DNA of 64,000 nt from Halichondria panicea (lineage: Eukaryota; Porifera; Demospongiae; Suberitida; Halichondriidae). Made by a program: the position numbers and the translations under genes. The notes beneath the pieces are model-generated. The model did no database searches. It was given only the letters and a program-made list of their open reading frames with translations, and was not told where the DNA came from. Position 1 is the stretch's first letter; every line of letters begins with the position of its first letter. The stretch is taken from assembly GCF_963675165.1 (NCBI RefSeq), contig NC_087379.1, positions 2,298,201 to 2,362,200 on the forward strand, given 5' to 3'. Shown here piece after piece: positions 12,146 to 63,792 of this stretch.

Positions 12146-18760
<6,615 letters not shown>

Positions 18761-38306: not shown

Positions 38307-41300
38307 ATGAACTGTAAGTTATTAGCAATAGCAAAAATTATTTCTAGACCTTTAATTAATGACATCTCTGTACCTTGCATCCAGCTGTAGTGTTTCAAGT
38401 CTTCCTTTCCCTGGGGCTGATTTTCACTTTTTCTGCAAGCTGTAGCAGAAAGCTAATGGGTCAGTTGTCAGTTGATTGATGAATGTATATGATATATTTA
38501 CGGTGTATATATACCAGCTATACTTCTTCTTTGACGCAGCTAATGCATTGAATAAGAGATGCCTAGCTGAAGGAGAGCCAACTTCCTGTGATTGCCAAGC
38601 ACCTCTCCAGAGAGGCTCAATGGAATGGACAGGCAACAGCTCAGGTTATGTTTGCCCTGGGATCAACACTGGACAAGCCAATCTCATTGTATTTGCATTG
38701 GGAGAAACATGCTCTGCAGAGGGACAAAATGATGTATCATGTGGACCTTACTTTGCAAACATCACCTGCAACGAGAATGGCTACTTATCTGTTCTCTCCT
38801 TTACTGCTAACAGCAATATGAACGGTGGTACGATTCTATGCCAACAAAACCTAACTGGGGCAGAACCTTATCAACAATTCTCCATCAGAGTAGGAGGTAA
38901 TTACAAATCGCTTGAATTGTATACAAATCATTAATTTTATGCAGTTCGACCTTACCCACCGGCCCAAGCCAACCTGACTTTCCCGATGAACAGAAATCTT
39001 CAATTGGACTGGACTCCTCCGGCAAACCCAGTGATTGGTGGAATACGAGGCTACCTGTTGTATTTCTCTCCAGGTTGTGGCACCTGCTCACACTCAGAAT
39101 TAGTCAGTAATACGACCTTCACTGCTCTATGTAATGAATGGCAAGCTAATGGACAGACTTGTGTCTTTGAGGTCAGGACAGTGACAGAAGATTGTGGACT
39201 AGAGAGCCCCCCTCTCAGAAAAATCAGCATTATTGATGGTGAAATCATTGCATTCTGCATAATTATGCTTATAATTATGTCAAATTGCAGATACACGTCC
39301 TACTAACATCAGAGTCTCCATACTTTGCACAGTGGAAGTGGACCCTCGTACAATTCATGTGGAATGGAGTGTAAGCATGCAGCTATAAAAATATAGGTCG
39401 CAATTCCTTATATGTCCCTTAATTAATCCTATCGCTTACAGTTTGCATGGTATTTTTGCTTAGCTAGCCTTTATATAATTATAGGCACATGTTTAGTATA
39501 CCGTAACACATAGCTTCTACGCATACACACAATACACGCAGTACATTCCTCCCCAAGTTATCGATCCCAGTATGCTCCCAGAAGTCCAAGGTTTCACGCT
39601 CATAATATCAGATAACCGAACTGCCCGAAGACTGTTTCTCTCTGGTGCACAAGTTAGGGAACATTCTTTCAACTCCTCATTTCTCCAAGCTGCTAATTTG
39701 ACAGGAAATACCAACCTTATCTGGGTAGTAGCAGAAACAGCAGCTGACAGAATTCCTAGTGAATCAATTCTGTTTTCGGCGACAGGTAAAATACAATGTG
39801 TATAGTAATGCACCTGTATACATATTCCATATAACAACGTGTGAATTTTGGCAAGCATAAAAGCCCGTTCAATTAATAATGAATGTGCTGCGTTAGCTAT
39901 AGCCAGATGAAGTAGATGTATATCTGACCCATTTCCACCACATTTCAATGCAACAAATTTGCTGTAAATCAGCTAAAATTAGTACCTTAAAAACAATTAC
40001 CTGAAATCGCTAAATACTGAGTGCGGCCGGGTATGAAGTTTTGTTAAACATAAATGGAGAGCATAATGATTCATTATCCTCATGATCAAGACAAGAACCG
40101 CAAAATTAGTCATTAGATTCGAGGTAAGGTCGCTTTTAAGCTGAGACTATTTCCTGAAATATAGCCACCTCGCTATTCTGGCCAAGCTGCACTGTCCCAA
40201 GGGTAACTGGATTAACGACAGTCTACTGTAAATAGTAACGTTATAATTAATTAAGAGTTATGAAGTATCAAGCATGAGGGCGAATTGCCTGTATATATTG
40301 AATATTATAATTATTAATTATGGATTCTCATGCTTTATATCTTGAGGACCTCTTACCAAATCATGCCCTGAGGCTACGCGACCATGTAATAAAATAACAC
40401 GGAACGTTACACCCTTGTTTCCTTAACAATGTGCTATTATCCCGCTATTTGCAGATGAGTTGATCACTGGTATTGACCTAAGCCAAATTTTAACTGAGCA
40501 GCAGTGCGTACAAATCTCCATCAACAGCTTCTGTAAAAAGAGTGCAGCTTCCTTTCAAGTTCAACTCAGATTCTCCAGAGGCATTTGTGAGGATAATGCT
40601 GTAGAAACAACCACAAACAATTACACGCTACAGACAAATCACATAACGTGTATTCCTACAGAAAACTATTCGAATTGCTTCTCTGTTGTAGTCTATAATG
40701 ATGGAATGGAAATTGGTGCAAGTGATCAACAGCAGCTAATACTTTCTGAGTGTAACACAAGCTCTATAACTGCCTCTGGAGTCTGGTTTAACTCAACCAT
40801 GGGTCGAGTGTCTCTAGGAGATTCCGTCCCTCACAACACACAGCTGGATATTCACTGTAACCCTTATTGCCGCATGCTTGTCGGAGATAACAACACTCTT
40901 TGTATCAACGGAACTTTTGAGCCAGCTGGTAATGCTCGGTGTGACTGCTCTCCAGGTAATTTCATATTGTGCATGTGTACAGTTGATTCTATTTACCTTC
41001 TCTTTTTGTTACAGATACGGCAGATATTGATAGGTTGTTACTTATTTACTTCTTTGCCTCCATTCCGATGTATATTTGCATCTGTGGTATGATCCTATGC
41101 GGGTGTGGTGTGCACATATACGTATACGGTAGGTGTAACTTGTCATAATCTCATTATCACTTGTTTCACAGTTTATATTATATGCAGAATTTTTTGCGCC
41201 GTTGTTCACTGGTGAATACGATAGCTCGAGAGTGCCCCAATCTAGTACTCCTAATACAAATCGTCCTCGTCCCAAACAGAAGTTGGCCGGATCTAATTGT

Positions 41301-41909
41301 AGCCCCAAACAAAAGAATGTGTCAAGATCCAGAGTTGTACCCTTAACACCGATAATAGAAGAACCTACACCGTTAATAAAACTATCTTCTGCTGATACTG
41401 GTGGTCCTCGTCCCAGACAAAGGAAGGTGTTTGGATCCAAATGTATGCAATTAGAAATACCTATTACTAATCGTCCTCATCTCAAACAAAATAAGTTGTC
41501 CAGATCTGGTTCTGTACCACTAGAAGAATGTAATACTGATGATGGTTCTCCTCCTAAACTACAAAAGACGTTGTCCGTAGAAGTAGAAGTGCATGATACT
41601 GATGACACTTCTCATCGCAACCAAGAGAAGCTGTCTGAATCCATACAGCTAAAAGAAGTAGCTCCTGCTAGTACTGATGATGATCCCCGTCCCAAACAAA
41701 AGAAGCCGTCAGAATCCATACAGCTAAAAGAAGTAGCTCCTGCTAATACTGATGATGATCCTCGTCCTCGTCCTAAACAAAAGAAGTTGTCCAAACCCAG
41801 ACCAAATACTACTCAACCGAAACAAAAGAATTTGTATGAATCCAGATCACCATTGGCAGAAGTACCTAATACTGCTCGTCTCAAGTTGTCTGCATATAGA
41901 AGTGCGTGA
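38307..41909 (+). CDS. receptor A: Ig-like/Fn3/sushi-like single-pass membrane protein with repetitive tail
   Basis: Not a family I can name. Exons: 38307-38313, 38385-38459, 38540-38896, 38945-39238, 39291-39370, 39542-39785, 40455-40955, 41015-41128, 41188-41909; 797 residues. The signal peptide (MN/SVVFQVFLSLGLIF…) is split by a 7-base first coding exon. Residues 28-146 are Cys-rich and Ig-like (RGSMEWTGNSS, CGPYFANITC, GGTILCQ). Residues 147-244 are Fn3-like (LDWTPPANPVIGG, GYLLYFSPGCGTC). Exons 5+6 (to 352) are a second Fn3-like unit. Residues 353-519 are a Cys-rich module ending in a sushi-like segment (LDIHCNPYCR…CINGTFEPAG). Exon 8 is the transmembrane helix and exon 9 a 240-residue Lys/Pro/Asp/Glu tail. 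Introns are phase 1 except intron 5, typical of shuffled extracellular modules. Many N-glycosylation sequons. Intron 6 is expanded to about 670 bp. Confidence 0.85.
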
Positions 41910-42323
41910 TACTGATAATAATCCTCGTCCCTAACTAGAGACTAGAAGTATGAGCTTAAGACTGTGATTAGTAGTTTATTTATCTAATAACTTTTTGTGA
42001 ATGTCAAAAGATTATTTTAGGAGGAGGACGTCTTATAATTGTTTCACATGTGTCCAGAGATTATTGCTAACCCTCTCTCCAATAAGCTATGGATCTACAC
42101 AGCACACTGTGTCGTTGTGTAATAGAAAACAACAATGTATGTACCTTATGTCTGATGAGGAATGGTGATGCTGCTTCTACTTGTACGCATGCGTTCAGCT
42201 CATGAGATAAATGGACGTGTTGGGGTTTGACTCGAGATTACAGCCTGCTCAACTGTGTGGTGTCATTATGGCATTCCATTATTATTCATTATCCTGAAGT
42301 ATAATTATCTCCTGAGAGAAGTG

Positions 42324-45300
42324 ATGAACTGTAAGTCAGCAACAGTAAATTACAATCTAGTCAAGCTTGTGTTTATTTTTTCAGCCCTGTAGCTAGCTGT
42401 TATAGGTCTATAGCAGAGCTATAGCAATTGCCAAGCTTATGTATTAATGGCTGCTCTGTGCTTTGCATCCAGCTGTATTGTTCCAAGTCTTCCTTTCCCT
42501 ACTACTGATTCTCAACCATTTTGCAAGCTGTAGCAGAAAGCTAACAGGTCAGTTGCCAGTTGATTGAATGCCGGGTAAAGACATTTATAATTGAATACCA
42601 TTTCACACACTCAGCTAATGCGAGCTGCCTGGCTGAAGGAGAGTCCATTTCCTGTGATTGCCAAGCACCTCTCCAGAGAGGCTCAATGGAATGGACAGGC
42701 AACAGCTCAAATTTTGTTTGCCCTGGAATCAACACTGGACAAGCCAATCTCATTGTATTTGCATTGGGAGAAACGTGCTCTACAGAGGGACAAAATGGTG
42801 CATCATGTGGACCTTACTTTGCAAACATCACCTGCAATGATAATGGCTACATATCTGTTCTCTCCTTCACTGCTAACAGCAATATGAATGGTGGTACGAT
42901 TCTATGCCAAAAACACCTAACTGGGGCAGAACCTTATCAACAATTCTCCATCAGAGTAGGAGGTAATTATGAAATGTATACCTTAAGGTGACATGATTAT
43001 TTTCACAAGTAGATTTGTTTGCGTTTTCACTGTTTAGCTCATTTTGCTATTATTAAATTCTGCTAAATCCTACTCAAGTTGTGTTATATAGTGTTTCTAC
43101 AAGTGACATTATCTGCGAGTATAAATTTTGCAATTTTACTCTCATTCGCAGAAATAGCAGAAATTAATACTCGCAAAAATATGTCACCTTAAGGTATATA
43201 GTTAATTGACTTTTTATGCAGTTCGACCTTACCCACCGGCCAAAGCCAACCTGACTTTTCCGATGAACAGAAATCTTCGATTGGACTGGACTCCTCCGGC
43301 AAATCCAGTGATTGTTGAACTACGAGGTTACCTGCTGTATTTCTCTCCAGGTTGTGGCACCTGCTCACACTCAGAATTAGTCAGCAATACGACCTTCACT
43401 GCTCTATGTAATGAATGGCAGGCAAATGAACAGACTTGTGTCTTTGAGGTCAGGACAGTGACAGAAGATTGTGGACTAGAGAGCCTTCCTCTCAGAAAAA
43501 TCAGCATTTTTGATGGTGACTTCATTGCATTCTGCATAATTATGCATAATTATATGCCATATTGCAGATACACGTCCTACTAACATCAGAGTTTCCATAC
43601 TTTGCACAGTGGAAGTGGATCCTCGTACAATTCATGTGGAGTGGAGTGTAAGCAAGTATAGTAGACACATGCACATGCACTGACAATTTATAAAGCATTC
43701 CTATTGATATAGCCTTTAACATCGTATCGTTATAGTAGTATAATCAGGAGTAGATACTTATGTTTTGAGCCATTATAGGGCACATCACATGTTCAGTATA
43801 CTATAACACATGGCTTCTACGCATACACACAATACATGCAGTACATTCCTCCCCTAGTTATCCACCCCAGTATGCTCCCAGAAGTCCAAGGTTTCACGCT
43901 CATAATATCAGATAACCGAACCGCTCGAAGACTGTTTCTCCCTGGTGCACAAGTTAGGGAACATTCTTTCAACTCCTCATTTCTCCAAGCTGCTAATTTG
44001 ACAGGAAATGCCAACCTTATCTGGGTAGTAGCAGAAACAGCAGCTGACATAACTCCTAGTGAATCAATTCTGTTCTTGGCGGCAGGTAAAATGCAATCAT
44101 GCATGTATATGAATACAGTATAGTATCCCACTGTTTATTCTTGAATGTGCAGATGAGTTGATCACTGGTATTGACTTAAGCCAAGTGTTAACTGAGCAGT
44201 GCGTACAAATCTCAATCAGCAGTTTCTGTAAAAAGAGTGCAGCTTCCTTTCAAGTTCAACTCAGATTCTCCAGGGGCTTTTGTAAGGATAATGCTGCAGA
44301 AACAACCAAACAAAATTACACGCTACAGGAAAACTACATGACCAGTATTCCTACAGAAAACTTTTCGAATTGCTTCTCTGTTGTAGTCTTTAATGATGGA
44401 ATGGAAATTGGTGCAAGTGATCAACAGCAACTAATACTTTCTGAGTGTAATACAAGCTCTATAAATGCCTCTGGAGTCTGGTTTAACTCAACCATGGGTC
44501 GAGTGTCTCTAGGAGATTCCGTCCTTCACAACACACAGCTGGATATTCACTGTAACCCTGATTGCCGCATGCCTGTCGGAGATAACAACACTCTTTGTGT
44601 CAACGGGACCTTTGAGCCAGCTGGTGATGCTCAGTGTGACTGCTCTCTAGGTAATTAATTTTCATTTATTGCATGTGTACGATAATCAAATTTTGCTTTG
44701 TTACAGATGAGGATAGGTTGTGGCATATTTTCTTCCTTGCCTCCATTCCGTTGCATATATGTCTCATTGGTATACTCCTATTCGTGTGTGGTCTGTACAT
44801 ATACGGTAGGTGTAACTTGTCATTAGTAGTATAAAATTATCACTTGTGTCACATGTGTGTGCATGTGAGTAGTATACACATGATCAGTACACAGCATATT
44901 AGGCCATGCAAAGTCAATTTGTAGCAAATAGCAAGTGGATTGAGGCATTTGATAAAATTAATATTAATTGTCAGTCATAATTATTTCATGGCCAAAAAAC
45001 CATACAAATTTGTGCCTTTAATTTGAGGTCACGTGATATTTAACTTTGTAAAGCTGCCAATTTCCAAGCGCGAGAGCCTAAGAAACTACAAATTGACTTT
45101 GCATGGCCTTAATAATGCTTTTTTATCTGCAGATTTTTTTGAGCCGTTCTTCACTGGTGAATATGATAGCCCGAGAGTGCCCCAATCTAGTACTCCTAAT
45201 ACTAATCGTCCTCGTCCCAAACAGAAGTTGGCCGGATCCAGTCCTAATATTAATGCTAATCGTAGTCCCAAACAAAAGAATTTGTCAGGATCCAGAGCTG

Positions 45301-45890
45301 TACCATCTATACCGCAATTGCAAATGAAACGAACTCCTCCTACTTCTGATGGTCTTCGTCCCGGACAAAGGAAGGTGTCTGGATTCAAATCTTTGAATTT
45401 TGAAGTTCCTGTTACTAATCGTCTTCATCCCAAACAAAAAACATTGTCCGGATCATCTATACAATTAGAAGAATTGTCCGAATCCAGTTCTGTACTACTA
45501 GAAGAATCTAATACTGAATTAGACAATCTTCATCTCAGACAAAGAAATTTATCCACTAGATCTGTACTGTTGGAAGAAGTATCTCCTCCTAATACTGATG
45601 ATTCTCATCCCAAACTAAAGACGTTGTCCGTAGAAGTAGAAGTGTATGATATTGATGATGATCCTCGTCCCAAAGAAGAGAAGCCGTCTGAATCCATACA
45701 GCTAATACAAGTAGCTCCTGCTAATACTGATGATGATCCTCGTCCCAAAGAAGAGAAGCCGTCTGAATCCATACATCTAAAAGAAGTAGCTCCTGCTAAT
45801 ATTGATGATGATCTTCGTTCTCGTCCTAAACAAAAGAAGTTGTCCAAACTCCGACCAAACACTGATCGTCCCAAACAAAAGAAGTTGTAA
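42324..45890 (+). CDS. receptor B: paralogue of receptor A
   Basis: Same nine-exon plan: 42324-42330, 42473-42547, 42615-42962, 43222-43515, 43568-43647, 43842-44085, 44153-44650, 44707-44805, 45133-45890; 800 residues, every junction in phase. The signal peptide reads MN/SVLFQVFLSLLLIL. The Ig-like exon is 9 bp shorter than in A and C. Exons 7-8 are the most divergent of the three (GFCKDNAAETT, NPDCRMPVG; TM HIFFLASIPLHICLIGILL). The tail (549-800) has DDDPRPKEEKPSESIQL-type repeats and ends DRPKQKKL. Introns 3 and 8 carry inverted-repeat insertions absent from A and C. It lies about 400 bp downstream of A in the same orientation. Function unknown; a surface receptor or adhesion role is inferred from architecture. 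Confidence 0.85.
42977..43201. mobile_element. MITE-like insertion in receptor B intron 3
   Basis: TATACCTTAAGGTGACAT at the left and ATGTCACCTTAAGGTATA at the right are inverted ends. Intron 3 is 48 bp in A and 53 bp in C but 259 bp here, so this is a B-specific insertion of about 220 bp. Confidence 0.85.
44896..45115. mobile_element. MITE-like insertion in receptor B intron 8
   Basis: Left 'ATTAGGCCATGCAAAGTCAA' and right 'TTGACTTTGCATGGCCTTAAT' are inverted, about 28 bp each. Intron 8 is 59 bp in A and 97 bp in C against 327 bp here. Confidence 0.85.
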
Positions 45891-46345
45891 GTGCTGATAT
45901 ACTGATGATAATCCTGGTCCCAAACTAATGAAGTACATGTAGTAACAACTAGAAGATTGTGATTAGTGATATTTGTAATTATAATTCATTTGTGCGCATG
46001 CCCAGTTCCATCTCCACCGATTAGGGGGCGTTCAGAGATATAATTTGTGGGTGGGGCTCAATGTAAAGAATACCGTATAGCGCGAAATTTCAAGGCACTT
46101 ATATTTCGTGGATTGGCCTCTAAAAGCATTTTCGTCGCACAATGTTCGCGGAATGACTGCTTACCGGAAGCCACGCATTTAAAATCTTGCACGTTTCGTA
46201 GGATTGCTACCAACGAAATCCACGAAAATTAAGCCCCCTCGAAAATTTCGCGCTATACGGTAGCTACTGCACGTGCTGAACTCTGATGTGGAGTACTATA
46301 TAAATATGCGTGTAGTATATATATGAATCGAACATGAAGAAACAG
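45891..46345 (+). repeat. 3' flank of receptor B, duplicated at 63412-63804
   Basis: Apart from insertions in each copy, this matches the 3' flank of receptor C through 'GAACTCTGATGTGGAGTACTA' and 'GAATCGAACATGAAGAAACAG'. Similarity stops exactly after ATGAAGAAACAG (46333-46344). In C this is the start of an open gene; here the next codons lead to a stop after unrelated sequence. Confidence 0.85.
46071..46262. mobile_element. 192-bp TIR element (TACCGTATAGCGCGAAA)
   Basis: Begins TACCGTATAGCGCGAAATTT and ends with the inverse AAATTTCGCGCTATACGGTA. It sits downstream of receptor B inside sequence otherwise shared with the 3' flank of receptor C, where it is absent. Confidence 0.9.
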
Positions 46346-47290
46346 GGGGCATGTGATTCAGTAATGGTGTCCGTTCTGAGAGGTTATTTTCTATTGCTAA
46401 GGCTTTTTGGGGACTAGAAAGCTGCTCGTTATACGGAGTAGAGAGGTGGTCGCTCCTGAGAGGTTGCTAGTCATTGTAGTTTCAATCCGGATCTGAGCGC
46501 CGTTATATAGTGTGTAGTTGCTCTTCGGAGGTGGTTGTTAGGAGGTTCCACTGTAATTATGTTCCAGATCCATCTATACCTGCTATACCTGCCATCCACC
46601 ACATCATCATCCATGCATGTCACTACGCATGGATGGACTGTGTACATTGGCATGCCTGTGCTCAATACATTGTATTAGAAAACATCAATTCATCACAAAA
46701 TTTAATCATCATGATGCATGTAATGTATGTATATATAGGGATCGTCATCACCCCAGTGAAAATTGATATAGAATTGGTGGGGAAAAACTAGACTACAAGT
46801 GAAAAAAGTACATGTGACATGACGTTGTAACGGATTGCAATGGAGTTATGCTCTTGTCTGATTTCTTGTTTCCACGCTTTTTTGTGGGTCTTGATGTAGC
46901 AATCATGTTAAACTGCTACGACTCATTAACTAACAAGAGATATTAAGATAGACGCTGACTCAGCAGGATCGAAAAGGATCGATTTTTTGACTCATAATTA
47001 TGTCTTTATTTTTTTCTGTACTCTTGAGCACTTCCCTGCTTCAATCTCTACAAACGCCCCTGGAGTTAAAGCTTATTAAAAGCTTTCAGGAGTGATCATT
47101 AGCTTCTTTATCTTCAGCAATGACTTCCTGTCGAACATAAAGGCAAAGTTTGGTAGCAGAAGACTTGCCACAGCCTTGAACTGCACGTCATGCTTTTCCT
47201 ATAACATCTGTAGCCTTACAGTGTAGTGTAGGGTGTCGTCTTGGCTTGATACAATAAAGGGCGTAAGAACTCAGTTATCTTTGCATAATA
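46346..47290. other. intergenic repeat DNA
   Basis: No gene seen. It includes a fragment at about 46825-46885 (GACGTTGTAACGGATTG…TTTCTTGTTTCC) related to the ends of the element at 55058-55572. Confidence 0.55.
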
Positions 47291-47294
47291 CTTC

Positions 47295-48063
47295 TATGTA
47301 ATGGACTGCAACTTTAGAATACAAAATAGTATACGGTTTATTTTACTGACAGTATCCACAAATACACAGATTACCATCTTTTGGGGTAATGTACGTGCAT
47401 GCGCATACAGGCCACTTTTCTCTTCGCGGCCTGGAATCGAAGCGAACCAGAGCTGCAACCTATCACTGGAGAAGCGCTCAGAGGTGCTACTTCTAACTCT
47501 CAGCCAGGCGCAAGACTGGACGTCGCTGCAAATGGGTTCTGGGGAGGACGCTTCCAAAAAACATATCTTGATGTCAGAGTATTCAACCCTTTTGCCCCCT
47601 CCAATTCTCACTCCAACCTTACAGCCTGCTACCGCAAACATGAATTAATAAAGAAACGTGCCTACGAGCAAAGGATAAAAGAAATTGAGAATGCCTCATT
47701 CACTATCTTTCCCACCGGAGGTCTTGCAGTTGAAGTGACTGTTTTTTACAAAGACTTGGCCTCCCTACTTGCAACGAAATGGATCAACTCTACTTCTCCA
47801 CCCTGTCCTGGCTACGCTGCCGCCTAAATTTCTCTTTATACTAAGATCAGCAATCCAGTGCATTCGTGGGACCCGCTCAAGCGCTGGTCAAGCCATGAAG
47901 ACACAGCCCCCTATGGACCTGGCTATGTCAGCTCTTGATCAACTGAACTCAGCATCAACATAGTAATTATTTTTCCCCATTATTTTTCCCATTATTTTAT
48001 CTAGCTTTGTATCTCACCCTCTAACCTTCACATGAAGTATTATTGCTCAAAAAAAAAAAAAAA
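47295..48063 (+). pseudogene. retroelement 3' fragment with poly-A tail
   Basis: The frame 47399-47827 encodes a C-terminal domain seen in many invertebrate retroelements (PITGEALRGATSNSQPGARL, DVAANGFWGGRF, DVRVFNPFAPSN, CYRKHELIKKRAYEQRIKEI). The frame shifts at about 47780, and the rest of the domain (LLRSAIQCIRGTRSS) continues in another frame to about 47963. A run of about 15 A's at 48049-48063 is the likely poly-A tail. 5'-truncated and inactive. Confidence 0.75.
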
Positions 48064-49041
48064 GGCTAGCATAAAAGCTAGTTCCCGGGTAAAGCGTCTG
48101 TTAGGCCACTAAAAGAGAAACACGAGAAATACCGGAAGTGAAATTAAATAATGGGCGTGGCAATAGGAGTGGCGCAGCGAGGTCCAATTTGCTAGCGGGT
48201 TCTGTGCCTGCATGCATGGTGCTGTAATCACTGAACTGAATGCTACTCGGATGCACTACCTTATATAGGGACACTACCACCACATTATCTCCGAACACAT
48301 CAATGGATGCAACATCACCTACCCACCATCTCTCCACAACTCTCAACTCCTCCTCAAACAGCGTCAACTATTCACTCCATTCCACGAAGTCAGGCATATT
48401 GTTTAATGCTAGGAGTGTTGCAAACAAACTACGAGATCTTCACGCAGGAGAAAACATTGATATTATCGCTGTCACAGAAACACACAGATACAAAACTAAT
48501 GGTCCCCAATCATTCTGTCTTCAGGAGAGACAGAAATTGGTAAGGGGGAGGGATTATAATATGCTTCTGGTTCATAACAACATCCCTGCAACAAGGCTCC
48601 ACGACCTTGAAACCAACTGTCAGAGTGAACTCCTATATGGGTGGAAATAAGTTACCCTACACCATCAGCTAAAAGTGCTAGTGAGTCTTCTATCGACCTC
48701 CAAGCTCGTCCAGCATCCACCTAACATTCCTCAGGAACTCTCTATCAACGATTTTTTAATATTCAAATCATGCCCAGTGATCATTGGCGAAGACTTTAAC
48801 ATCCCGTTTATCAATTGGAGACTATACTTGCATCGAATCTATGTGACATACAGTGCATCCAGTCTATAGAGAGTATATATAGAATACCCAAATAGGTGAG
48901 TATATAATTATATATCAGTTGTACTTAAATATATCTGATCAACATTGGAACATTTCTAAGAAATTGTGCTGATATAATTATAATTATATATATATATATA
49001 CCATTGTATATAGGTGAATGAATAAGCTACCATAATAATTA

Positions 49042-49635
49042 CTAATTTATCGAACACTTCTATAATTATCCCGGACACTCTTTTGGGAAATTTTTATTGT
49101 TCTAATACAACGGACACTCCATGCAGTGCTTTAATATTCCCGACAATACCTTGAAAGTTGAGTTACGGCCGCGGCAAATTTTTTTTACTGAAACTGCAGC
49201 TAAAAATGTCCTTAAAACTGCATCACAAACGATTAACAACCAATAGCTAAGTATATGGCTACTCGTGCAATATGGGATTAATAGCACTCTTAGCCATACT
49301 ATTAATTATATTATATAGGAGCATAATCGGAACACCCATGCATGCATTCTCGGAACATGCAGCCCTCGGGGCTTACGCCCTCGTGCTTCAGTGCAATATA
49401 TTCCATACATCCCTTGTGCCCGTGTTATAACTATAACATACTATAATTATTAGCTATAGTGCAACTATTCAGTCGCTCACTGTTCTATTAAACTTAGCTA
49501 GCTCGCATGCAGCTGCTTGCTTGTTCTAATTATTCCGGACACTTCACATGCTCTGTAAAAATCTGTTCTAATTATACCCAGACAATTTCCAAAATAATAT
49601 TTTTTGCTGTCCGATAAATTAGAAGATATACGGTA
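49042..49635. mobile_element. degraded TACCGTATATCTTCTAA element
   Basis: Right end AAATTAGAAGATATACGGTA matches the element at 8795-9194. The left end retains only ACTAATTTATCGAACAC. The interior has the same 'GTTCTAAT…CCGGACA' motifs. Confidence 0.75.
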
Positions 49636-49903
49636 TATTCAAAAATACTTCCCCAAAAGTTGTTGTAGTGGGAAATCATTTTAGGTGTAAAATGGGGGTG
49701 ATGGTGTGTAACATCAATTATCTCCGGAATTAAAGTATTTCTGGACAAACTTTTCTTTCAAAAGTTAGACAATTAATTTTATTCAAGCTTACTCGGTGTA
49801 ATTTTTGGACCTTAGCTGTGAGATCTTCTTCAAATCTCTCCTTAACCGAAGCGGCACTAAAAACTAGCAATTATGAGCACTGCGGAGGATGTGTAGATAC
49901 ATT

Positions 49904-52055: not shown

Positions 52056-52506
52056 GTGTTTTGCACGTTAGCTCTCAAACAGTGTAGTGATGTATAGACC
52101 CATACATGTCATAAACAATTCCTATATATAATTATAATAAAGCTCATGGAAAAACCAGTGACACCATGCACTCCCATTTTTTTGCAGCCTAGCTGAGCTA
52201 CATCTACATCTAGTGATCTAGCTCATGATTGATCCATACTTTACTGACAATGCCAGAGAAAACTTTGGAACTGGAAAGGATTAGCTACAATTTAACCGCT
52301 GGACAGAGTATAGCATCTGATTGTCTAGGACCTTCTTGAGACTGCATGCATGGCGTGCATGCATGTATATGTATGTAAGCTACCCTGCCAGGTACCTAGT
52401 GAGACTAGAAACTCCTTGAACAGAAGTCTAACCAGAATAAAACCAGTCACTGGCAGCATAGATAGCTCTATCTATATATGCTGGTACACTAGTGTTAATG
52501 TGGTAC

Positions 52507-52555
52507 TAGCCTCGAGACCAGGCCGATTAAAATTAATCGGCCTGGATTCGAGGCT
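52507..52555. mobile_element. 49-bp TAGCCTCGA hairpin with 10-bp target duplication
   Basis: TAGCCTCGAGACCAGGCCGA and its inverted counterpart meet at TTAATTAA-like centre sequence. Direct AATGTGGTAC copies flank it at 52497-52506 and 52556-52565. Confidence 0.92.
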
Positions 52556-52652
52556 AATGTGGTACCCGCCAGCAAATTGGACCCCGCTAGGCCACGCCCA
52601 TTATTTAATTTCACTTCCGGTATTTCTCTTTTAGTGTCTTTTAGTTGGCTAG

Positions 52653-52790
52653 CTAGCCTCGTTCCCAGGCCTTACTTTTTCTTGCTGTTGTCACTGTTCA
52701 TCCAGATCCCATGAAAGACATAGTGAGGCAGCAAAGAAAAAATGGGCGTACAGTTAAGAAAAAGTAAGGCCTGGTTTGGGAAATCGCGTG
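52653..52790. mobile_element. longer TAGCCTCG-type inverted repeat
   Basis: CTCGTTCCCAGGCCTTACTT at the left is mirrored by AAGTAAGGCCTGGTTTGGGA at the right, around a roughly 80-bp centre. Confidence 0.75.
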
Positions 52791-53446
52791 ATCCACAAGG
52801 ATTTTTATGAACGTGGGCGATATGTAGCCCACAATCATGACGTAAGGTATTCTCCCACGCATTCAGAGTTAATAAGACTGTACTGAGACAACCACCAAGC
52901 TGTGCTGCAAGTCAGATCAGAGAACCAGCATGGCCAGCTCTGGTGGCAGTAGCTACCTGCTATATGATAATGATGACTAAGCTATTCTTGATCTATACTA
53001 TATAGACTATAGCATGTAGAAAGACACAACGTGATAGAATCTGAACACACAATCTAGACTAGTAGATCATCTAGCTAAGCCTAAGGTATAGCTAGCTATA
53101 TAGTGCTTGCAAACTTCCAGTTCCAAGTCCATGTCCAGCTTGCTGCAGGCATCATAGATCTCTGTGTGGGCAGTCCAACATCTCTAGCTTAGCATGCCCA
53201 CGCTCATTTTCACCCTTCTACCACCCTTCTACCCTCACGCGACTTCCCGATACATTTTCCTAACTCTACGTCTATTTTTTTCTTTATTCCTCCAATTAAT
53301 ACCGTATTTTATCTCATTGAACGATTAATACAGTATTTTATCTTATTGAACGATTGTGATAAAGAACAAAAAAAGGAGAGCCTTTGTAGAGGCTAGACTT
53401 GTAATACGCTGGCACAGAGAGATAATTGTTTACAGACTTGTCAGTC

Positions 53447-53596
53447 ATGATCGTCTTCCTTCCCATTGGCTTGTTAATCCGTTTGTGTATCGCTGCCTGC
53501 AACAGTGCCAATGGTGATGGTAACTGCTCTTGTTGTCACAAAGAAGTTGACTTAGAGACTGGACAAGAGACGGACGACCCACTGCTGCAGGCATAA
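53447..53596 (+). CDS. small membrane-like ORF or last exon (49 codons)
   Basis: The peptide starts MIVFLPIGLLIRLCIAAC (hydrophobic), then a Gly/Cys-rich linker (GDGNCSCC) and an acidic tail ending ETDDPLLQA, resembling a dileucine sorting signal. TTTACAG just upstream could be an acceptor, making this a terminal exon. No homology recognised and no upstream exon identified. Confidence 0.3.
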   Translation: MIVFLPIGLLIRLCIAACNSANGDGNCSCCHKEVDLETGQETDDPLLQA

Positions 53597-55055
53597 CAAC
53601 GTGAAAATCTATCGAAACCCCCATTTCAACAGTCTGAATAATCATACATGTATCATCTTTCTATGTGGACTAGTTATGTATACCGTGCGATAATATAATA
53701 GCAAGTTTTATATTGAAGTCTATATCCATTTATATAGATGCAGCCATTCCTTTGTCAGTTTACTAGTGCCTATACTTTTACGTCACGTTTAATTACATTG
53801 AAAGGGGCTGGCCAGGTGACTACGTATACCGCCATGTAACGGCTTATCTTCATCTCTTTCCCCTAGATAGAAAGGGCGTATTTTCCAGTCTATTGAAACT
53901 TAATGTTGGCATCTGGCAATGGCATGCAGTAACTATACATTGTATAAATTCAGCTTATTAATAGAGATTGAAAAATACTTAGCTATCAAGCATTTTGGGG
54001 CCATTAATAATAACAAAGTTGATGTCCTATGATACCCTAAGTCTCGTATTACCAGCCGTTCTCGTTAGTAGCCTATAGGGCTGCATGGTAATATGAGACA
54101 AAATTAGGAATCTCCCTGATTGCATAGAGTATCATGTCTCAGTTTCATATTATTACCATGCAGCCCTATAGGCCCCTCCCAGACTACTAATGAGAACGGC
54201 TGGTAATACTTCATACCAAGGATTCCTTGTTAAAAGTGCTTCTATCTACATATACTATTGCATGCTTTAAGTTTAGAGCTGCCTGATATAAAAATAAACA
54301 TTGCACATTCACAACAAAACACACACCGGCTATAAAACAACACACACATTATTATAAGGCTTCAACCAGCTAAAGTTAGCATTTTCCATGTAGAAGTCCC
54401 TAGTACTTATCAACCGCATAAAAGTATAAACGAAGCCATAATTTACCACATATCGGGTCGAACTCAACGCAAATATAGACTTTAATTCTGTAACAGGATG
54501 ACCACACGTGCTGATCGAACCCACAAGTTTGTGGTTAATGGGCAGGGAATGTACCATCATATAGTCCATCCATAGCTATTGTAACAACCTATAAAGTGTC
54601 AATTGATATAATGCATGATTGACTTGTTGTTTGTTTGAATTGTTGAGTAAAAGTATTTACACAATAAATTATAGCTACAATGTTTTAGTAATAAATATAC
54701 TGTGTACAAATTATAATGCATGGTGTCTATAGATTATATAATTATACATGTCATACATATACATATACATGTACGTACGTACGTAGGAGCGGGTGGTTGA
54801 ATGTATGTGCACAAAAATGGGGTGACATTACATCTTAAATTAACAGTTACTAATTATAGGCACACATGCAGAATGAGCTACATCCACGAGTCCTCTTGTG
54901 ATGGCTCCTCTTTCGCTCTCTTTTTCTCTTTTTTTATCCTTTTGCTGCCGGAAAATATGGTTTTTGGTGAATATTAACCTGCATGTACAAAATAAACTGT
55001 GCATGCATGGGTACTGTTACTACTGTACCAGATCAGTCTATACATATATATGTAT
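53597..55055. other. intergenic; MITE and repeat fragments
   Basis: Contains an inverted-repeat element (54047-54208) and a repeat (54350-54500) matching 200-330 in reverse. The 79-codon minus frame at 54569-54330 lies in that repeat. AT-rich simple sequence elsewhere; no gene seen. Confidence 0.55.
54047..54208. mobile_element. MITE with TIR ATTACCAGCCGTTCTC
   Basis: ATTACCAGCCGTTCTCGTTA at the left pairs with TAATGAGAACGGCTGGTAAT at the right; an internal GCCTATAGGGCTGCATGGTAAT is also inverted. The whole element folds into one long hairpin. Confidence 0.85.
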
Positions 55056-55057
55056 CA

Positions 55058-55572
55058 AAACTAAAAAACATTTGCAATGTGAACGTTGCTAGGATTGCCA
55101 GGAAAAGAAAAGCGCGAAAAAGCGAAGAAACAAGAAATTCGGCGAGTGCATAACTCCAATCCGTTACAACTTCATTCACATGTACTGTTTCAATTTTTTG
55201 TTCGTTTTGTGCTTTTCCTGGCCAATCCTTCAGTAATTTTTATCATAATAATTATAATTACATTGTATAGTGAATTTTTTGCAAGCTATATAATGTTTGT
55301 GATGTTTTCCCTTACAGTGTTGAGCAAACATGCAAGTGTTGGATGTGTGGGTGGATGATTGTGAATTCAGTTATTCGCCATTCATTTTTACCCAACTTGT
55401 ATTTTGATTCTAAAATCATTATCAACAGTAGGCCACTCGGCTGTACATGTTCATGGCGTTGTAACGGATTGGAGTTATGCACTCGCCGAATTTCTTGTTT
55501 CTTCGCTTTTTCGCGCTTTTCTTTTCCTGGCAATCCTAGCAACGTTCACATTGCAAATGTTTTTTAGTTTTG
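55058..55572. mobile_element. 515-bp element with about 105-bp near-perfect TIRs
   Basis: AAAACTAAAAAACATTTGCA at the left is mirrored at the right end. The match continues through GTTGCTAGGATTGCCAGGAA and CGAGTGCATAACTCCAATCC. Paired spurious ORFs on both strands arise from the symmetry. A fragment of the same family is at about 46825. Confidence 0.92.
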
Positions 55573-56099
55573 ATTCCCTTTCTTTTTTCATTACAGTAGT
55601 ACATTAATGATAAGATAAATGTGACGTTGATTAATTTGTCATCGTCCTGTAATCTTGTTGAAGATAATAATTATATAAGTGGTCGTTGGACAGAAGTATA
55701 TTATACTCTTCAATAATGAAAGTGAAATACCTGAAGAGGAACATCAAGAAGCAAGAGAAGTTCAAGAAGAGAAGACAGGACTGGAATAAACATTATTATT
55801 TTATTCAGCATCTATGTGATAAAATGACAGCCATGTTTATACTATACAGTGGCGTAGGAAGCACGGGTGCTCAGGGTGCTGGAGCACCCCCTTATCTCAA
55901 GCTACCTTACCTACTTGCTCCATGAAGTTCAGAGCAGCTAGCTAGAAGTCCAGCTAGTAGCTAGCTATTAGTTACTAAGCTAGCTATACTAGCATAGTTA
56001 CGTACACAGTACAAAGGTCAGCTAGATGAACCACATCGTAGATATCTCTTATAAAGAGCAAGCACATTGCGAATCTGCAACAAGTAAGTCTCCTCTCAT

Positions 56100-57000
56100 T
56101 ATGCCTTGGTGCGCATGCGCAAGCGAGGTACCGTATAGCGGGTATATTTCGAGGGTATAAATTTTCGCAGATGGACCATTACAAAGGATTTCGCGGATTT
56201 TATTTTCGTGGTCTGAGTTCCAGCCTTTTGGCGCATGCGCACATCAACATGTAGCTGTTACCACCACACCGTTAGCCTCGAATCCAGGCCTAGCCTATAA
56301 CGGTGAGGCACCTCTTATTGTCGATAGGTGTGGTCAATAATACTGAACACGCCTACTATTCAATAAAGATATAAATTTTCGTGGGTATAAATTTTCGCGG
56401 TAGAGGCTCAATCCGCGAAAACCGCGAACATTTATACCCTCAAAATATACCCGCTATACGGTATACGGTAGTGTGTTTGTGTGTCTGTGTGTGTGTGTGT
56501 CTGTGTAGACTGCTACAGCTGCTCAAGGATGAATCAAGTGCAAGTAAGAGTTTCTATAGGCTTCTAGTCATGTTTACTTGGATTCTAATTCGTGGATTTG
56601 CAAAATAATGCTTCATTCTCGAGTTATGCCTAGTTTTGCTTACTTGGAATGCCATTGCAGTTTTTTTAGAAGAGCACGTAGCCAAACTTGTTTACCGAGT
56701 GTTGCTACTCTACTTAGTAGTTAGCTCTGCACTAGAACGCTAGCTATTGGTAGCTGCAAGAGTGAGAAGAGAGCTGCAAGGCTCTGCTGATGGCAGCCAT
56801 TAATTTTAGACTTGAACTTTTGGCATCGATCGTTTTAACAACAATCATGGTCGATCATTACCCACTCTCTGAGTTTTTGCATGCAGCAAAATTTAATTGT
56901 TTTGCATAAAAGCTATTAGTAGCAGCTTTATGTTATGTAGCTTTGACATCTCCACCGAGGCATCAGCACCTGCGGTGCTTTCATTTTTGACATTAATGGT
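56100..57000 (+). repeat. dispersed repeat copy with nested TIR element
   Basis: Same family as 16395 and 23495 (GCGCATGCGCAAGCGAGGTA, GCTTCTAGTCATGTTTACTT, GAGGCATCAGCACCTGCGG). It is split by the TACCGTATAGCGGGTATA element at 56129-56463. Confidence 0.75.
56129..56463. mobile_element. 335-bp TIR element (TACCGTATAGCGGGTATA)
   Basis: Starts TACCGTATAGCGGGTATATT and ends AATATACCCGCTATACGGTA inverted. The inside has repeated 'ATAAATTTTCGYGG' and a TAGCCTCGAATCCAGGCC hairpin remnant at 56274. Confidence 0.9.
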
Positions 57001-59094
57001 AGCCATGAACAGCTACTAAAGAGGGTAGCTAGACTATAGATCAAGTGTAATTGGATCCTAAATAGACATGCTGTAGTTAAAACGTTCGTTTTCTTCACTG
57101 CGAAGATTAAAACGTTCCTCCGAAGTACAATGACACATGCAATGCAATTTTTTTTATTGTATATTCATACCCACTTAACAGATTCTATAGATTTAAAGTA
57201 TATAGCATAAAAATTTTGATACTGATAATTTTATACCAAATTTGCTCAGAATTAATCTCCGGGAATGTAGAGTGCCAAAATTTTCCTGGGGCAAGCCCCC
57301 GGACCCCCAGATTTGTAAAGCACCCTTACAAAAACATCTTCCTACTCCTCTGCTATATACTGTAGATGTACTTCCAAGTGCAAAAGCATGGAGGCCTATG
57401 GCTATGGTATATCCAGTCAATGCATATGTCTAGCATAAATAGCATACCTGAAGTGAGAGAGAATGGAGAGCTGAGCTGAAGAAAGGAGGCTTGTGTTATC
57501 GATGTCAAAGCCACGCCCACCTCATAAGTTGCCATATGCGCTGCCAGAGGAGGTTGGACACGATCACGTGCACCACTTTTTTTGCTGAGCTGGCACAAAA
57601 ATTGACAAATGAGTTCTATGTAAACTTTTAGCTGGTGTTGCACGGTCATTAGAGACTGAAGGCAAACTTTATGTGCCTCGCTGGCTTCTTTTGATATAAA
57701 ACTTTCATTAACCAACCCGATCCCCACCGATCCCCTTTATTCTGGCGAGTTATCAGTGCATACAGTGTTTACTAGATTCTTGACAGCCAGTACAATGCAA
57801 GCTTCATACAGCACTGCTAAACTATACTCTACCCTATAGTCTAGCTAATCTTGGTCCAGCCAGACAACAGACACAGCTAGTCCGGTGTTACAAGTCAGTA
57901 AAGCAAGAGTATCCATAACTTTTTTATTACAGTTATTCGGTATCTATGGTAACGTGAGCAGAGACCTTAGGAATGTCACATGATTGATGACGCGTGGCCA
58001 ACCTCCTCTGTGTTGCTGTGGCGGAATTGCGTAGGTAAGAAAAGTAGAGCCTGAGAGGTCATTTGCCTCTTGGAAGCGAACGCAATTCTGAGAAAAACGC
58101 CCATGGTCCGGATTCTAGTCGACTAGAGGCTGTATCTAGAATCTTCTGAAGATGTCTGTACAAGGAGGAAATGCTTTTCAAGAAAGTTACTTACTTACTT
58201 ACTTACTAACTTACTTAGTCAGTCAGACAAAACGCTGTGAAATATGAAAATAGTGCAATTTTTCAAATATCAATAGTAATGCATGAGAATATTCATTGAC
58301 TATAATTTCACACATTTAGACAGATAAAAGGCTAACTAAGCTATCTGTCAACTCAGTTTCTTGCTGTGGCCCTTTCCTGCAGAAATAGAGCAGTCTAAAC
58401 ACGAGTCAAAATTTGCAATTTCCACAATACATGTACCTGGTACAACAATCAAATTTGTGGATTTTGCACAAAATTTGTGATCTATATCACATCTTTCAAA
58501 CAAGATACATATACTCTTGGCTCTATTGAGGTGAGGGCTTATTCAATGTTGTACTACTGTATTAAAGTACGCACGAACTCTTGATTTGTTTTAGTTATAA
58601 ATAGTTGATGAGATATATATGGTGGTAGAACTCGTGCGCATCTTTGTTATGTCAGAACAATTATAGTTGTACTTTTTATTGCAGAAACTCTATGATGATG
58701 GTGGAGTCAGTGGATCCCGTCGGACATTAATTAAACCCCCTCATCGACAGTTCACTGTTTCTATCACCACACACCCTGCATGTTTAACGTTTAAGTTATA
58801 AATTATCTCTTACAAATTTGCCTTCATGATTGTGTTGCGTTGCAGCTACTTGTACGTCAAAAAGTGATTCAGCATTGATACACGCACACATAGCATAGCA
58901 GTTATTTGCAGAGTCCTGAAGGGACAATTATAATAAGGAACTTCTTCTTTATATAGCTCAGGCTAAGTGGCTCATCATTAGCCACTTAGCCTCAGTACAA
59001 CCACTGCACTATCCTGGAAGGGCAGCTAATTCATGAAGAGTATTGAGTCAATTCGCGAACTTTGACCTAGGCTAACCTTCTGGATTTAACGCCA
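57001..59094. other. intergenic, mostly unidentified
   Basis: No secure gene. A GGCAAGCCCCCGGACCCCCA-type repeat lies at about 57240-57320, related to sequence at 3290-3480 and 6460-6620. A (TTAC)n run is at about 58188-58220. A short open segment after an acceptor-like TTGCAG at 58684 has no recognised homology. Confidence 0.5.
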
Positions 59095-59345
59095 CTAGCT
59101 AGCTAGCTGTTTTAACAGATATTTTCTAACTCTTGTAGCTAACAAAAAGCTAGCACTTTAGTGCAAGGCTAACTCGAATAGAAAGTTTGTGCGGAATAGA
59201 TGATGCTATGAAAGATTCTGAAGAGACTGCAACAGCCTTCAATGTGAGTCAAACTAGCCATAAAACTCGAGAAAGATGCTAATCCACGAATCAAAATCCA
59301 AGAGAACATGGCTAGAAGCCGTTGCGATGCTGCTTCTACTTGTAA
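59095..59345 (-). repeat. reversed copy of the dispersed GCTTCTAG repeat
   Basis: The reverse complement of this interval matches 23640-23880 closely. It ends just before the promoter block of receptor C. A short remnant of the same edge (GCTGCTTCTACTTGTA) is also upstream of receptor B. Confidence 0.8.
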
Positions 59346-59488
59346 TTGTGCGCATGCGTTCAGCTCATGCCTTTTAATTGTTGCGTGTCTCGAGATTACA
59401 GCCTGCTTCAAACGTGTGGTGTCATTGTGGCTCTTCTGCCTTCCTGATCATTATCCTGAACTTAGAAATATATCTCCCGAGAGAAGTG

Positions 59489-62400
59489 ATGAACTGTAAG
59501 TCGAGTCAGCAATAGTAAATTAGTCAGCTTGTGTTAATTTTTTCAGCCCTGTAGCTAGCTGTTATAGGTACCAACTGCTTGTATGTATTAATCAATGGCT
59601 GCTCTATATGCTTTGCATCCAGCTGTATTGTTCCAAGTCTTCATTTCCCTACTATTGATTCTCAACCATTTTGCAAGCTGTAGCAGAAAGCTAACAGGTC
59701 AGTTGCCAGTTGATTGAATGTATATGCTGGGTAAAAGACATAATTGAATACCAGTTAATTGTTTTACTCACTCAGCTAATGCATTGAATGAGAGCTGCCT
59801 GGCTGAAGGAGAGCCAACTTTCTGTGATTGCCAAGCACCTCTCCAGAGAGGCTCAATGGAATGGACAGGCAACAGCTCAACTTTTGTTTGCCCTGGGAGC
59901 AACACTGGACAAGCCAATCTCATTGTATTTGCATTGGGAGAAACGTGTTCTGCAAAGGGACAAAATGATGCATCATGTGGACCTTACTTCGCAAATATCA
60001 CCTGCAATGATAATGGCTACTTATCTGTTCTCTCCTTCACTGCCAACAGCAATATGAATGGTGGTACGATTCTATGCCAACAAAACCTAACTGGGGCAGA
60101 ACCTTATCAACAATTCTTCATCAGAGTAGGAGGTAATTATGAAATGTGTAAGCTTATACACACAGTTAATTGACTTTTTATGCAGTTCGACCTTACCCAC
60201 CGGCCAAAGCCAACTTGACTTTTCCGATGATCAGAAATCTTCGATTGGACTGGACTCCTCCGGCAAACCCAGTGATTGGTGGAATACGAGGCTACCTGCT
60301 GTATTTCTCTCCAGATTGTGGCACCTGCTCACACTCAGAATTAGTCAGCAATACGACCTTCACTGCTCTATGTAATGAATGGCAGGCAAATGGACAGACT
60401 TGTGTCTTTGAGGTCAGGACAGTGACAGAGGATTGTGGACTGGAGAGCCCTCTTCTCAGAAAAATCAGCATTTTTGATGGTGACTTCATTGCATTCTGCA
60501 TATGCATATATTTATGTCAAATTGCAGGTACACGTCCTACTAACATCAGAGTCTCCATACTTTGCACAGTGGAAGTGGATCCTCGTACAATTCATGTGGA
60601 ATGGAGTGTAAGCAAGTAGTAGACACATGCACATGCACTGACAATTTATAAAGCATTCCTATTGATATATATAGCCTTTAACATCGTATCGTTATAGTAG
60701 TATAATCAGGAGTAGATACTTATGTTTTGAGCCATTATAGGGCACATCACATGTTCAGTATACTATAACACATGGCTTCTACGCATACACACTACATGCA
60801 GTACATTCCTCCCCAAGTTATCCACCCCACAACGCTCCCAGAAGTCCAAGGTTTCACGCTCATAATATCAGATAACCGAACTGCTCGAAGACTGCTTCTC
60901 CCTGGTGCACAAGTTAGGGAACATTCTTTCAACTCCTCATTTCTCCAAGCTGCCAATTTGACAGGAAATGCTAACCTTATCTGGGTAATAGCAGACACAG
61001 CAGCTGACAGAATTCCTAGTGAATCAATTCTGTTTATGGCGGCAGGTAAAATACAATCATGCATGCATATATGAATACATGTATACTGTCATGCATGCAG
61101 TAATAATAATTATAGTATCCCACTGTTTATCTTGAATGTGCAGATGAGTTGATCACTGGTATTGACTTAAGCCAAGTGTTAACTGAGCAGTGCGTACAAA
61201 TCTCAATAAACAGTTTCTGCAAAAAGAGTGCAGCTTCCTTTCAAGTTCAACTCAGATTCTCCAGGGGCATTTGTGAGGATAATGCTGTAGAAACAACCAC
61301 AAACAATTACACGCTACAGACAAACTACATGACGTGTATTCCTACAGAAAACTATACAAATTGCTTCTCTGTTGTAGTCTTTAATGGTGGAATGGAAATT
61401 GGTGCAAGTGATCAACAGCAGCTAATACTTTCTGAGTGTAACACAAGCTCTATAACTGCCTCTGGAGTCTGGTTTAATTCAACCATGGGTCGAGTGTCTA
61501 TTGGACATTCCGTCCCTCACAACGCACAGCTGGATATTCACTGTAACCCTTATTGCCGCATGCTTGTCGGAGATAACAACACTCTTTGTGTCAACGGAAC
61601 TTTTGAGCCAGCTGGTAATGCTCGGTGTGACTGCTCTCCAGGTAATTTCATATTGTGCATGTGTATACAGTTGATTCTATTTATACCTTCTCTTTTTGTT
61701 ACAGATGAGGATAAGTTGTTACGTATTTACTTCTTTGCCTCCATTCCGATGTATATTTGCCTCTGTGGTATGATCCTATGCTGTTGTGGTGTGCACATAT
61801 ACGGTAGGTGTAACTTGTACTATTTCACTTGTTTCACAGTGCATCGTAATACACATTGCAGACTTCATGCTGAGTATATTTTTATTATTACTATCTACAG
61901 AAGTTTTTGTATGGTTGTTCACTGGTGAATTTACTACCCCGAGATATGCTGAATATGGTAACGAGGAAGCGCCCCCATCTAGTAATCCTACTACTTATCG
62001 TCCTCGTCCCAAACAGAAATTGGCCGGATCCAGTCCTAATATTGATGCTCATCGTAGTCTCAAACAAAGGAATTTGTCAAGATCCAGATCTGTACAATCT
62101 ATACCGCACATGAAACTAACTCCTCCTACTCCTGATGGTCCTCGTCCCGGACAAATAAGGAAGGTGTCTGGATCCAAATCTGTGCATCTTGAAGTACCTG
62201 GTACTAATCGTCTTCGTCCCAAACAAAAAACATTGTCCGGATCCAGCTCTATACAATTAGAAGAATTGTCCGATTCCAGTTCTGTACTACTAGAAGAATT
62301 AGACAATCTTCATCTCAGACAAAGAAATTTGTCCGCTAGATCTGTACTGTTGGAAGAAGTATCTCCTCCTAATACTGATGATTCTCATCCCAAACTAAAG

Positions 62401-63411
62401 ACGTTGTCCGTAGAAGTAGAAGTGTATGATACTGATGATGATCCTCGTCCCAAAGAAGAGAAGCCGCCTGAATCCATACAGCTAATACAAGTAGCTCCTG
62501 CTAATATTGATGATGATCCTCGTCCCAAAGAAGAAAAGTTGTCTGAATCCATACAGCTAGCTCCGGCTAATACTAATGATAATCCTTGTTCCGAAGAAGA
62601 GACTCTGCCGTCTGAATCCATACAGTTAAAAGAAGTAGCTCCTGCTAATATTGATGATGATCCTCGTCCTCGTCCTAAACAAAAGAAATTGTCCAAACCC
62701 CGACCAAACGTTAATACTACTCATCCCAAACAAAAGAAGTTGTCCGTACATAGAAGTGCTGATACTGATGATGATCCTCGTTCCAAAGAAGAGAAGCCAT
62801 CTGAATCCATACTGCTAATACAAGTAGCTCCTGCTAATACTGAAGATGATCCTCGTCCCAAAGAAGAGAAGCTAATACAAGTAGCTCCTGCTAATACTGA
62901 TGATGATCCTCGTCCCGAAGAAGAGACTCTACCGTCGGAATCCCTAAAAAAAGTAGCTCCTGCTATTACTGAAGATGATCCTCGTTCCAAAGAAGAGAAG
63001 CCATCTGAATCCATACAGCTAATACAAGTAGCTCCTGCTAATACTGAAGATGATCCTCGTCCCAAAGAAGAGAAGCCGTCTGAATCCATACTGCTAATAC
63101 AAGTAGCTCCTGCTAATACTGAAGATGATCCTCATCCCAAAGAAGAGAAGCTAATACAAGTAGCTCCTGCTAATACTGATGATGATCCTCGTCCCGAAGA
63201 AGATACTCTACCGTCGGAATCCCTAAAAGAAGTAGCTCCTGCTATTACTGAAGATGATCCTCGTTCCAAAGAAGAGAAGCCATCTGAATCCATACAGCTA
63301 AAAGAAGTAGCTCCTGCTAATACTGATGATGATCCTCGTCCTCGTCCTAAACAAAAGAAGTTGTCCAAACCCCGACCAAAAACTGATCGCCCCAAACAAA
63401 AGAAGTTGTAA
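59489..63411 (+). CDS. receptor C: paralogue with expanded repetitive tail
   Basis: Exons: 59489-59495, 59623-59697, 59776-60132, 60186-60479, 60528-60607, 60802-61045, 61144-61641, 61705-61803, 61901-63411; 1054 residues, all in phase. Signal peptide MN/SVLFQVFISLLLIL, Ig-like exon (28-146), Fn3-like exon (147-244), split Fn3-like unit (to 352), Cys-rich/sushi-like exon (353-518), TM (519-551; RIYFFASIPMYICLCGMIL). The tail has about 500 residues, twice that of A and B. About a dozen 25-residue units of the form DDDPRPKEEKPSESIQL plus 'IQVAPANT' alternate acid and base and end DRPKQKKL. Exons 1-6 and 9 resemble B, whereas exons 7-8 resemble A. An ATG in line with exon 2 sequence at 59595 also gives a signal-like peptide, but the conserved ATGAACT exon is preferred. 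Function unknown. Confidence 0.85.
62400..63340 (+). repeat. coding minisatellite, about 75-bp unit, receptor C tail
   Basis: Units such as GATGATGATCCTCGTCCCAA followed by 'AGAAGAGAAGCC…TCTGAATCCATACAGCTAATACAAGTAGCTCCTGCTAAT' repeat in frame (25 codons), with shortened variants. A and B have only two to four such units (41640-41780; 45640-45820). Confidence 0.9.
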
Positions 63412-63576: not shown

Positions 63577-63792
63577 CCAGTTCCATCTCCACAGATTAGG
63601 GGGCGTTCAAAGAGGCATACATAAAACTTGTAAGCGGGGCTCAATGTAGCATATCTAATAGCTAGCTAGCCGGCCTGTACTGTACTACTACTGTAGCTAG
63701 TCGAGTGTGCATGTGATGCATATGCTGAACTCTGATGTGGAGTACTATATATATGCGTGTAGTATCTAGATGTGAAGGTATATGAATCGAAC

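Follow-up and report, generated by a model that had tools for sequence, protein, structure and literature searches.

Three paralogous genes, here called g1, g2 and g3, lie in a stretch of 64,000 nucleotides from the sponge Halichondria panicea (the window; C3:2298201-2362200), and their predicted products can be compared with several described groups of surface molecules. To our knowledge, the molecular basis on which sponges discriminate between self, non-self and microbes is largely open, and a clustered family with mosaic copies, divergent pairs and differing tails supplies concrete recognition candidates in these animals. Sponge aggregation factors are likewise candidate recognition molecules and carry Calx-beta and Wreath domains. 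No Calx-beta match was found by Pfam in g1 or g2, for which full-length searches were made (the tail being covered for g3), and unlike aggregation factors, the trio appears to encode membrane proteins, judging from its hydrophobic stretch. In the accessible text of a study on graft transcriptomes in Amphimedon, adhesion and aggregation-factor genes were not significantly enriched (PMC5450542).

Another system for comparison is the Alr family of Hydractinia, whose proteins bear motifs with the form of immunoreceptor tyrosine-based inhibitory motifs (ITIMs). Receptor genes are clustered in both animals, and ITIM-form motifs occur in the tails of six of the 13 relatives of the trio considered here. 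Unlike in Alr proteins, no immunoglobulin (Ig) profile is matched, Fn3 and sushi-like modules are present, and the trio is devoid of tyrosine motifs. The Alr family comprises 41 genes, as given in the accessible text of a review (PMC11999971).

Sponge proteins that combine Fn3, Ig, sushi and scavenger receptor cysteine-rich (SRCR) modules are likewise expanded and mix such modules (PMC6208332, PMC4772301), and SRCR proteins with Ig or Fn3 domains are among those expanded in sponges (PMC4772301). Unlike what the available portions of these papers describe, the trio is characterized by its own exon order, a Cys-rich Fn3 signature and a repeat tail; moreover, no SRCR domain was matched by Pfam in full-length g1 or g2. 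Receptor tyrosine kinases with Ig or Fn3 ectodomains share the Fn3 ectodomain with the trio, and a kinase gene lies beside one relative on C8. No kinase domain was matched by Pfam in full-length g1, full-length g2 or the g3 tail, which speaks against a kinase-fused receptor, and the C8 kinase gene reads as a separate gene. It adjoins a family member at L057:1579-3742 (C8:750.6-752.7k) and contains kinase exons with E values of 2.9e-9 and 8.3e-11; upstream of these lies an exon that resembles Ig_3 but stays under the cut-off (E 0.001). The view that this module order belongs to no known family held, as no significant full-length match was obtained (Pfam for g1 and g2; PDB for the g1 ectodomain). 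Among the titles and abstract openings listed, in which subscription journals are thinly covered, none was found that names this architecture, and the g1 DNA had no relatives among phages, nor exon 7 among viral contigs. We regard the trio as a lineage-specific variant among modular receptors.

Gene models and module composition

The initial annotation had proposed three paralogues with a common nine-exon plan, and the rebuilt models agree with it. All three genes lie on the forward strand, and each has nine exons and an open spliced frame: g1 at 38307..41909 (797 aa), g2 at 42324..45890 (800 aa) and g3 at 59489..63411 (1054 aa). The splice points were set by hand, so GT-AG borders at 24 of 24 introns are partly a matter of construction; this does not apply to the identical splice sites present in all three copies, nor to the frames that stay open from ATG to stop. 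Intron phases are 1,1,1,1,0,1,1,1 in each gene. The description of the exons as bounded by phase 1 is therefore right for seven of eight introns and wrong for the phase-0 intron that splits exons 5 and 6.

The predicted spliced products are shown by their translations to begin with a signal peptide, to continue with an ectodomain of five parts and a single hydrophobic stretch, and to end in a repeat tail rich in Ser, Thr, Pro and charged residues. The five parts are, in order, a Cys-rich module, a Cys-rich Fn3 module, an Fn3-like module, a module of about 100 aa and a sushi-like module; the order first proposed was correct, but the ~100-aa module in exon 7 had been overlooked. Exons 1 and 2 encode the start codon and signal peptide (g1 38307-38313 and 38385-38459; g2 42324-42330 and 42473-42547; g3 59489-59495 and 59623-59697), and the end of the signal-peptide exon, S-C-S-R-K-L, recurs in the copies at C3:2820k and C3:2832k. 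Up to the transmembrane (TM) helix, signal peptide counted, there are 14, 15 and 15 sequons and 26, 25 and 26 Cys residues in g1, g2 and g3, in line with a sequon-rich ectodomain. Exon 8 encodes the putative TM helix (g1 41015..41128, g2 44707-44805, g3 61705-61803), and a single hydrophobic stretch is visible by eye in each of the three translations.

Exon 3 (g1 38540..38896, g2 42615-42962, g3 59776-60132) encodes the Cys-rich module that had been called Ig-like. In an alignment of 18 family members (A1), four columns are invariant, namely C7, G31, C38 and C67, and none of the 18 members matched an Ig profile in Pfam, so the term Ig-like amounts to a pattern-based guess. A1 found nothing significant in PDB either: the lowest E value was 0.66, immune-type receptor 10 came in at 1.2, and Ig heavy chains gave 1.8 and 2.1. 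In effect, identification of an Ig domain by profile failed.

Of the two Fn3-like modules that had been claimed, the one in exon 4 (g1 38945..39238, g2 43222-43515, g3 60186-60479) is confirmed by profile, and the one in exons 5 and 6 is recognizable by pattern only. Exon 4 of g1 by itself matches Pfam fn3 below the curated cut-off (E=0.0051). At E<=1, the profile is matched by 13 of 20 family members, the best at 7.3e-7. The exon-4 profile (A3) retrieves Fn3 chains from PDB, with RPTP delta at 2.4e-9 as the best single stretch and titin at 3.1e-15 through weak stretches summed. Invariant residues across the family are W22, C44, G45, C47, C62, C72 and C83. Judged by these sequence comparisons, exon 4 is a real Fn3 module, rich in Cys, when family members are included. 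The second module (g1 39291..39785, g2 43568-44085, g3 60528-61045) is the one split by the phase-0 intron. Among five relatives' pieces at this position, fn3 was matched in two, at E 0.0041 and 0.077 and thus below the cut-off, and in none of the other three; an hhalign comparison with A3 was not significant.

Exon 7 (g1 40455..40955, g2 44153-44650, g3 61144-61641) encodes about 167 aa, of which about 100 residues precede the sushi-like module. Its alignment of eight members (A2) contains 29 invariant columns, and neither fn3 nor Sushi was matched by Pfam in any of the eight. Downstream of the Fn3 exons in five relatives, Sushi scored above the cut-off in three (C9 L039; C1 L040 and L043) and was not matched in the other two (C1 L042, C8 L046). 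Since a comparison of A2 with L039 by hhalign was not significant, it is position and Cys pattern that point to sushi in the trio; the proposed assignment has profile backing in three of five relatives but not in exon 7 itself.

The tails, encoded by exon 9, are repetitive, charged and variable, as had been noted. They measure 239 aa in g1 (41188..41909), 251 aa in g2 (45133..45890) and 502 aa in g3 (61901..63411), the last with no Pfam match, and are built of 75-bp units plus shortened versions of these. A genome search with the g2 tail returned ten matches, every one within g1-g3. Gaps in the three pairwise comparisons of exon 9 are multiples of 3 in 6/6, 9/12 and 6/6 cases (21 of 24 in total), compared with 20 of 64 intron gaps. 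No YxxI/L/V motif occurs in the cytoplasmic parts of g1, g2 or g3, read from the membrane-proximal residues to the C terminus.

Divergence and mosaic structure of the trio

The ectodomain proteins of g1-g3 are 89-93% identical, with a synonymous divergence (dS) of 0.09-0.11 and a mean pairwise ratio of nonsynonymous to synonymous divergence (dN/dS) of 0.33-0.57; single extracellular modules range from 0.22 to 0.67. These values suggest that selection on the ectodomain is purifying on average, although selection on specific sites may still act. Positive selection on the ectodomain is not seen in these pairwise averages. In the tail, dN/dS is 0.96-1.62, and in the TM exon, which offers few sites, it is 1.35-3.35.

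The three copies do not differ evenly along their length. In introns 1, 2, 3, 5 and 6 (five of eight), g1 is only 55-70% identical to g2 and g3. Switches in the pattern of informative sites number 102, compared with a shuffled mean of 172.5, and none of 10000 shuffles gave a count as low. The same holds for exons alone (83 vs 104) and introns alone (19 vs 49.8), with 0 of 3000 shuffles in each case. A g2-like stretch of g3 extends over 60615..61205 and comprises runs of 54 informative sites in intron 5, 8 in intron 6 and 18 from intron 6 into early exon 7, exon 6 being mixed. It is followed by a g1-like stretch at 61598..61780, a putative conversion tract, with the end of exon 7 (19 sites), intron 7 (8) and exon 8 (5); the g1-like run spans much of exon 8. 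Intron 7 is identical between g1 and g3 at 59 of 59 positions, and g2 matches either of them at 36 of 51. The simplest reading of this mosaic is gene conversion or unequal exchange.

Relatives across the genome and head-to-head pairs

The genome search covered 131.5 Mb in 39 contigs and scored the best candidates only. A blended exon-4 query found, at E<=0.01, at least 42 places: six on C3, 15 on C8, 20 on C1 and one on C9. This number includes g1-g3, a copy at C3:2831-2833k that is broken by internal stops, and weak matches (seven at C1:9.0-9.6 Mb and one at C8:6.62 Mb). Other queries led to 15 places with exon 7, 16 places with exon 3 and 48 stretches with exons 4-6. Outside the family, the genome yielded 28 homeodomain matches, a small set that would suit a sponge, and many kinase matches; for PF07714, whose members include tyrosine and other kinases, there were 1749 initial candidates, and 129 of these were scored. 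No marker exclusive to sponges was found: with silicatein in mind, two of 77 peptidase-C1 matches were read, and each has the usual Cys.

In the exon-4 tree, g1-g3 are grouped with C3:2820k at 100/96, and these four join four minus-strand C8 genes at 99/96. The exon-3 tree groups g1-g3 with C3:2820k at 94/96 as well; there, C3:2820k branches next to g2 (94/84), within the trio, which is thus not a clean group. In these trees, the trio is a small branch of a larger family whose members occur on several contigs. In the gene on C9, a Cys-rich module is followed by a Cys-rich Fn3, by Fn3-like stretches, by sushi and then by a hydrophobic stretch; the module plan is therefore likely to be older than the trio.

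Two branches can be distinguished among the relatives. Branch A consists of minus-strand genes that are sushi-like and mostly without tyrosine motifs, and branch B often has tails with YxxI/L/V. Seven branch-A loci lie outside the window, with C8:767k and C8:773k counted as one gene and C8:810k assigned to this branch according to the exon-3 tree. At five of these seven, a branch-B gene starts on the opposite strand, about 0.4-0.64 kb away, in a divergent, head-to-head arrangement: C8:756-758k, 874-876k and 910-912k (L057, L060 and L061), and C3:2820-2822k and 2832-2835k (L055 and L056). In four pairs, the distance from the Cys-rich exon of the A copy to the start codon of the B copy is 445, 560, 564 and 583 bases; in the fifth, at C3:2820k, the B copy begins about 640 bases off and its first exon changes frame. 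One of the five paired A copies is the broken one at C3:2831-2833k. No such partner was found at C8:773k or C8:810k in the sequence examined there, and tblastn with three branch-B queries upstream of g1-g3 returned the trio's own exons only. Shared promoters would explain the head-to-head pairs; duplication of one ancestral pair could do so too.

The tails of relatives were read by eye, and YxxI/L/V was found in eight of 13, the splice points being provisional. By group, it occurs in one of four tails in branch A (C8:874k), four of five in branch B, all three on C1 and not in the single C9 tail. The six tails with the stricter, ITIM-like pattern [SIVL]xYxx[IVL] are those at C1:8609k, 8632k and 12897k (L062, L042 and L052) and at C8:870k, 874k and 899k (L060 and L046).

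Candidate functions and neighbouring sequence

The reading we favour, with moderate confidence, is that the trio encodes type I receptors at the cell surface, for recognition or adhesion, and that sequence has been exchanged between g1, g2 and g3 by gene conversion. Given the expansion, clustering and turnover of the family, the most likely role would be recognition of non-self or microbes. The ectodomain would bind a ligand on another cell, on matrix or on a microbe. A tail with no recognized domain and no YxxI/L/V may act as a scaffold or through phosphorylated Ser and Thr residues, and signalling through tyrosine motifs would belong to related members.

Several observations weigh against this reading. 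The sole Pfam match of full-length g1 is a weak fn3 (E 0.037), and g2 has no fn3 at E<=1, its sole match being a weak cwf18 at 0.82. Profile matches are lacking for the Cys-rich module of exon 3 and for both parts of exon 7 in the trio, the module of about 100 aa and the sushi-like one. Introns that are only 55-70% identical cannot be aligned with certainty, which makes the mosaic test safer on exons. Tail and TM dN/dS values near or above 1 could reflect little constraint.

A narrower possibility, held tentatively, is that these are innate-immunity receptors which sense microbes. In the accessible text of one study, an Aplysina aerophoba 'FnIII domain and Sushi repeat-containing gene' is differentially expressed after microbial elicitors, being down at 5 h (PMC6208332). 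This response would favour such a role if that gene is a homologue of the family. Tyrosine motifs in eight of 13 relatives' tails also point this way, although the three tails in the window have none.

A less probable account takes them for surface proteins of ordinary cell adhesion or development that were duplicated and have no immune role. Adhesion proteins often contain Fn3 and sushi modules, and purifying selection on the ectodomain, taken as a mean, would suit this account; copy number, clustering, the broken C3:2831-2833k copy and the mosaic pattern speak instead of turnover.

Rather unlikely, in our estimate, is a paired-receptor system, the sponge counterpart of paired immune receptors, in which genes of branches A and B would share a spacer of about 0.4-0.6 kb, be transcribed divergently from it and work as co-expressed partners. 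The trio would then be an A set that lacks B partners and has acquired a repeat tail of its own.

Allorecognition is improbable. It would imply allelic differences between individuals, with the ectodomain deciding between fusion and rejection on tissue contact. The initial annotation had pointed to a resemblance to such loci, and clustered tandem paralogues, sequence mosaicism, a sequon-rich ectodomain and variable repeat tails do agree with it. Yet, in this single assembly, the ectodomains are 89-93% identical, mean dN/dS is 0.33-0.57 and the highest extracellular module reaches 0.67, which leaves the role itself without support. Any recognition family with rapid turnover could show such clustering, duplication and mosaic sequence. 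Very unlikely, finally, are recent duplicates in decay with weak or no transcription: tail and TM dN/dS and the disrupted relative on the same chromosome, C3, would agree with this, but all three spliced frames are intact and ectodomain dN/dS is below 1 in all three pairs.

Beyond the trio, the downstream gene (63789-64000 together with L065:63-1217) gives only a weak Ephrin_rec_like match in Pfam; by eye it resembles protein O-mannose kinase. Its 5' region is repeated behind g2 as a fragment at 46268-46345 (81%), and the duplicated block may therefore extend beyond the receptor gene. An open reading frame at 48240-48650 looks by eye like the endonuclease of a long interspersed nuclear element, with no Pfam match at E 0.01. 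On the minus strand, AP-3 delta adaptin exons are located at 5246-5668 and 7234-7629. An uninterrupted (CA)316 microsatellite occupies 13118-13749, a short distance after an exon that gives an AMP-binding match (acyl-CoA synthetase-like).

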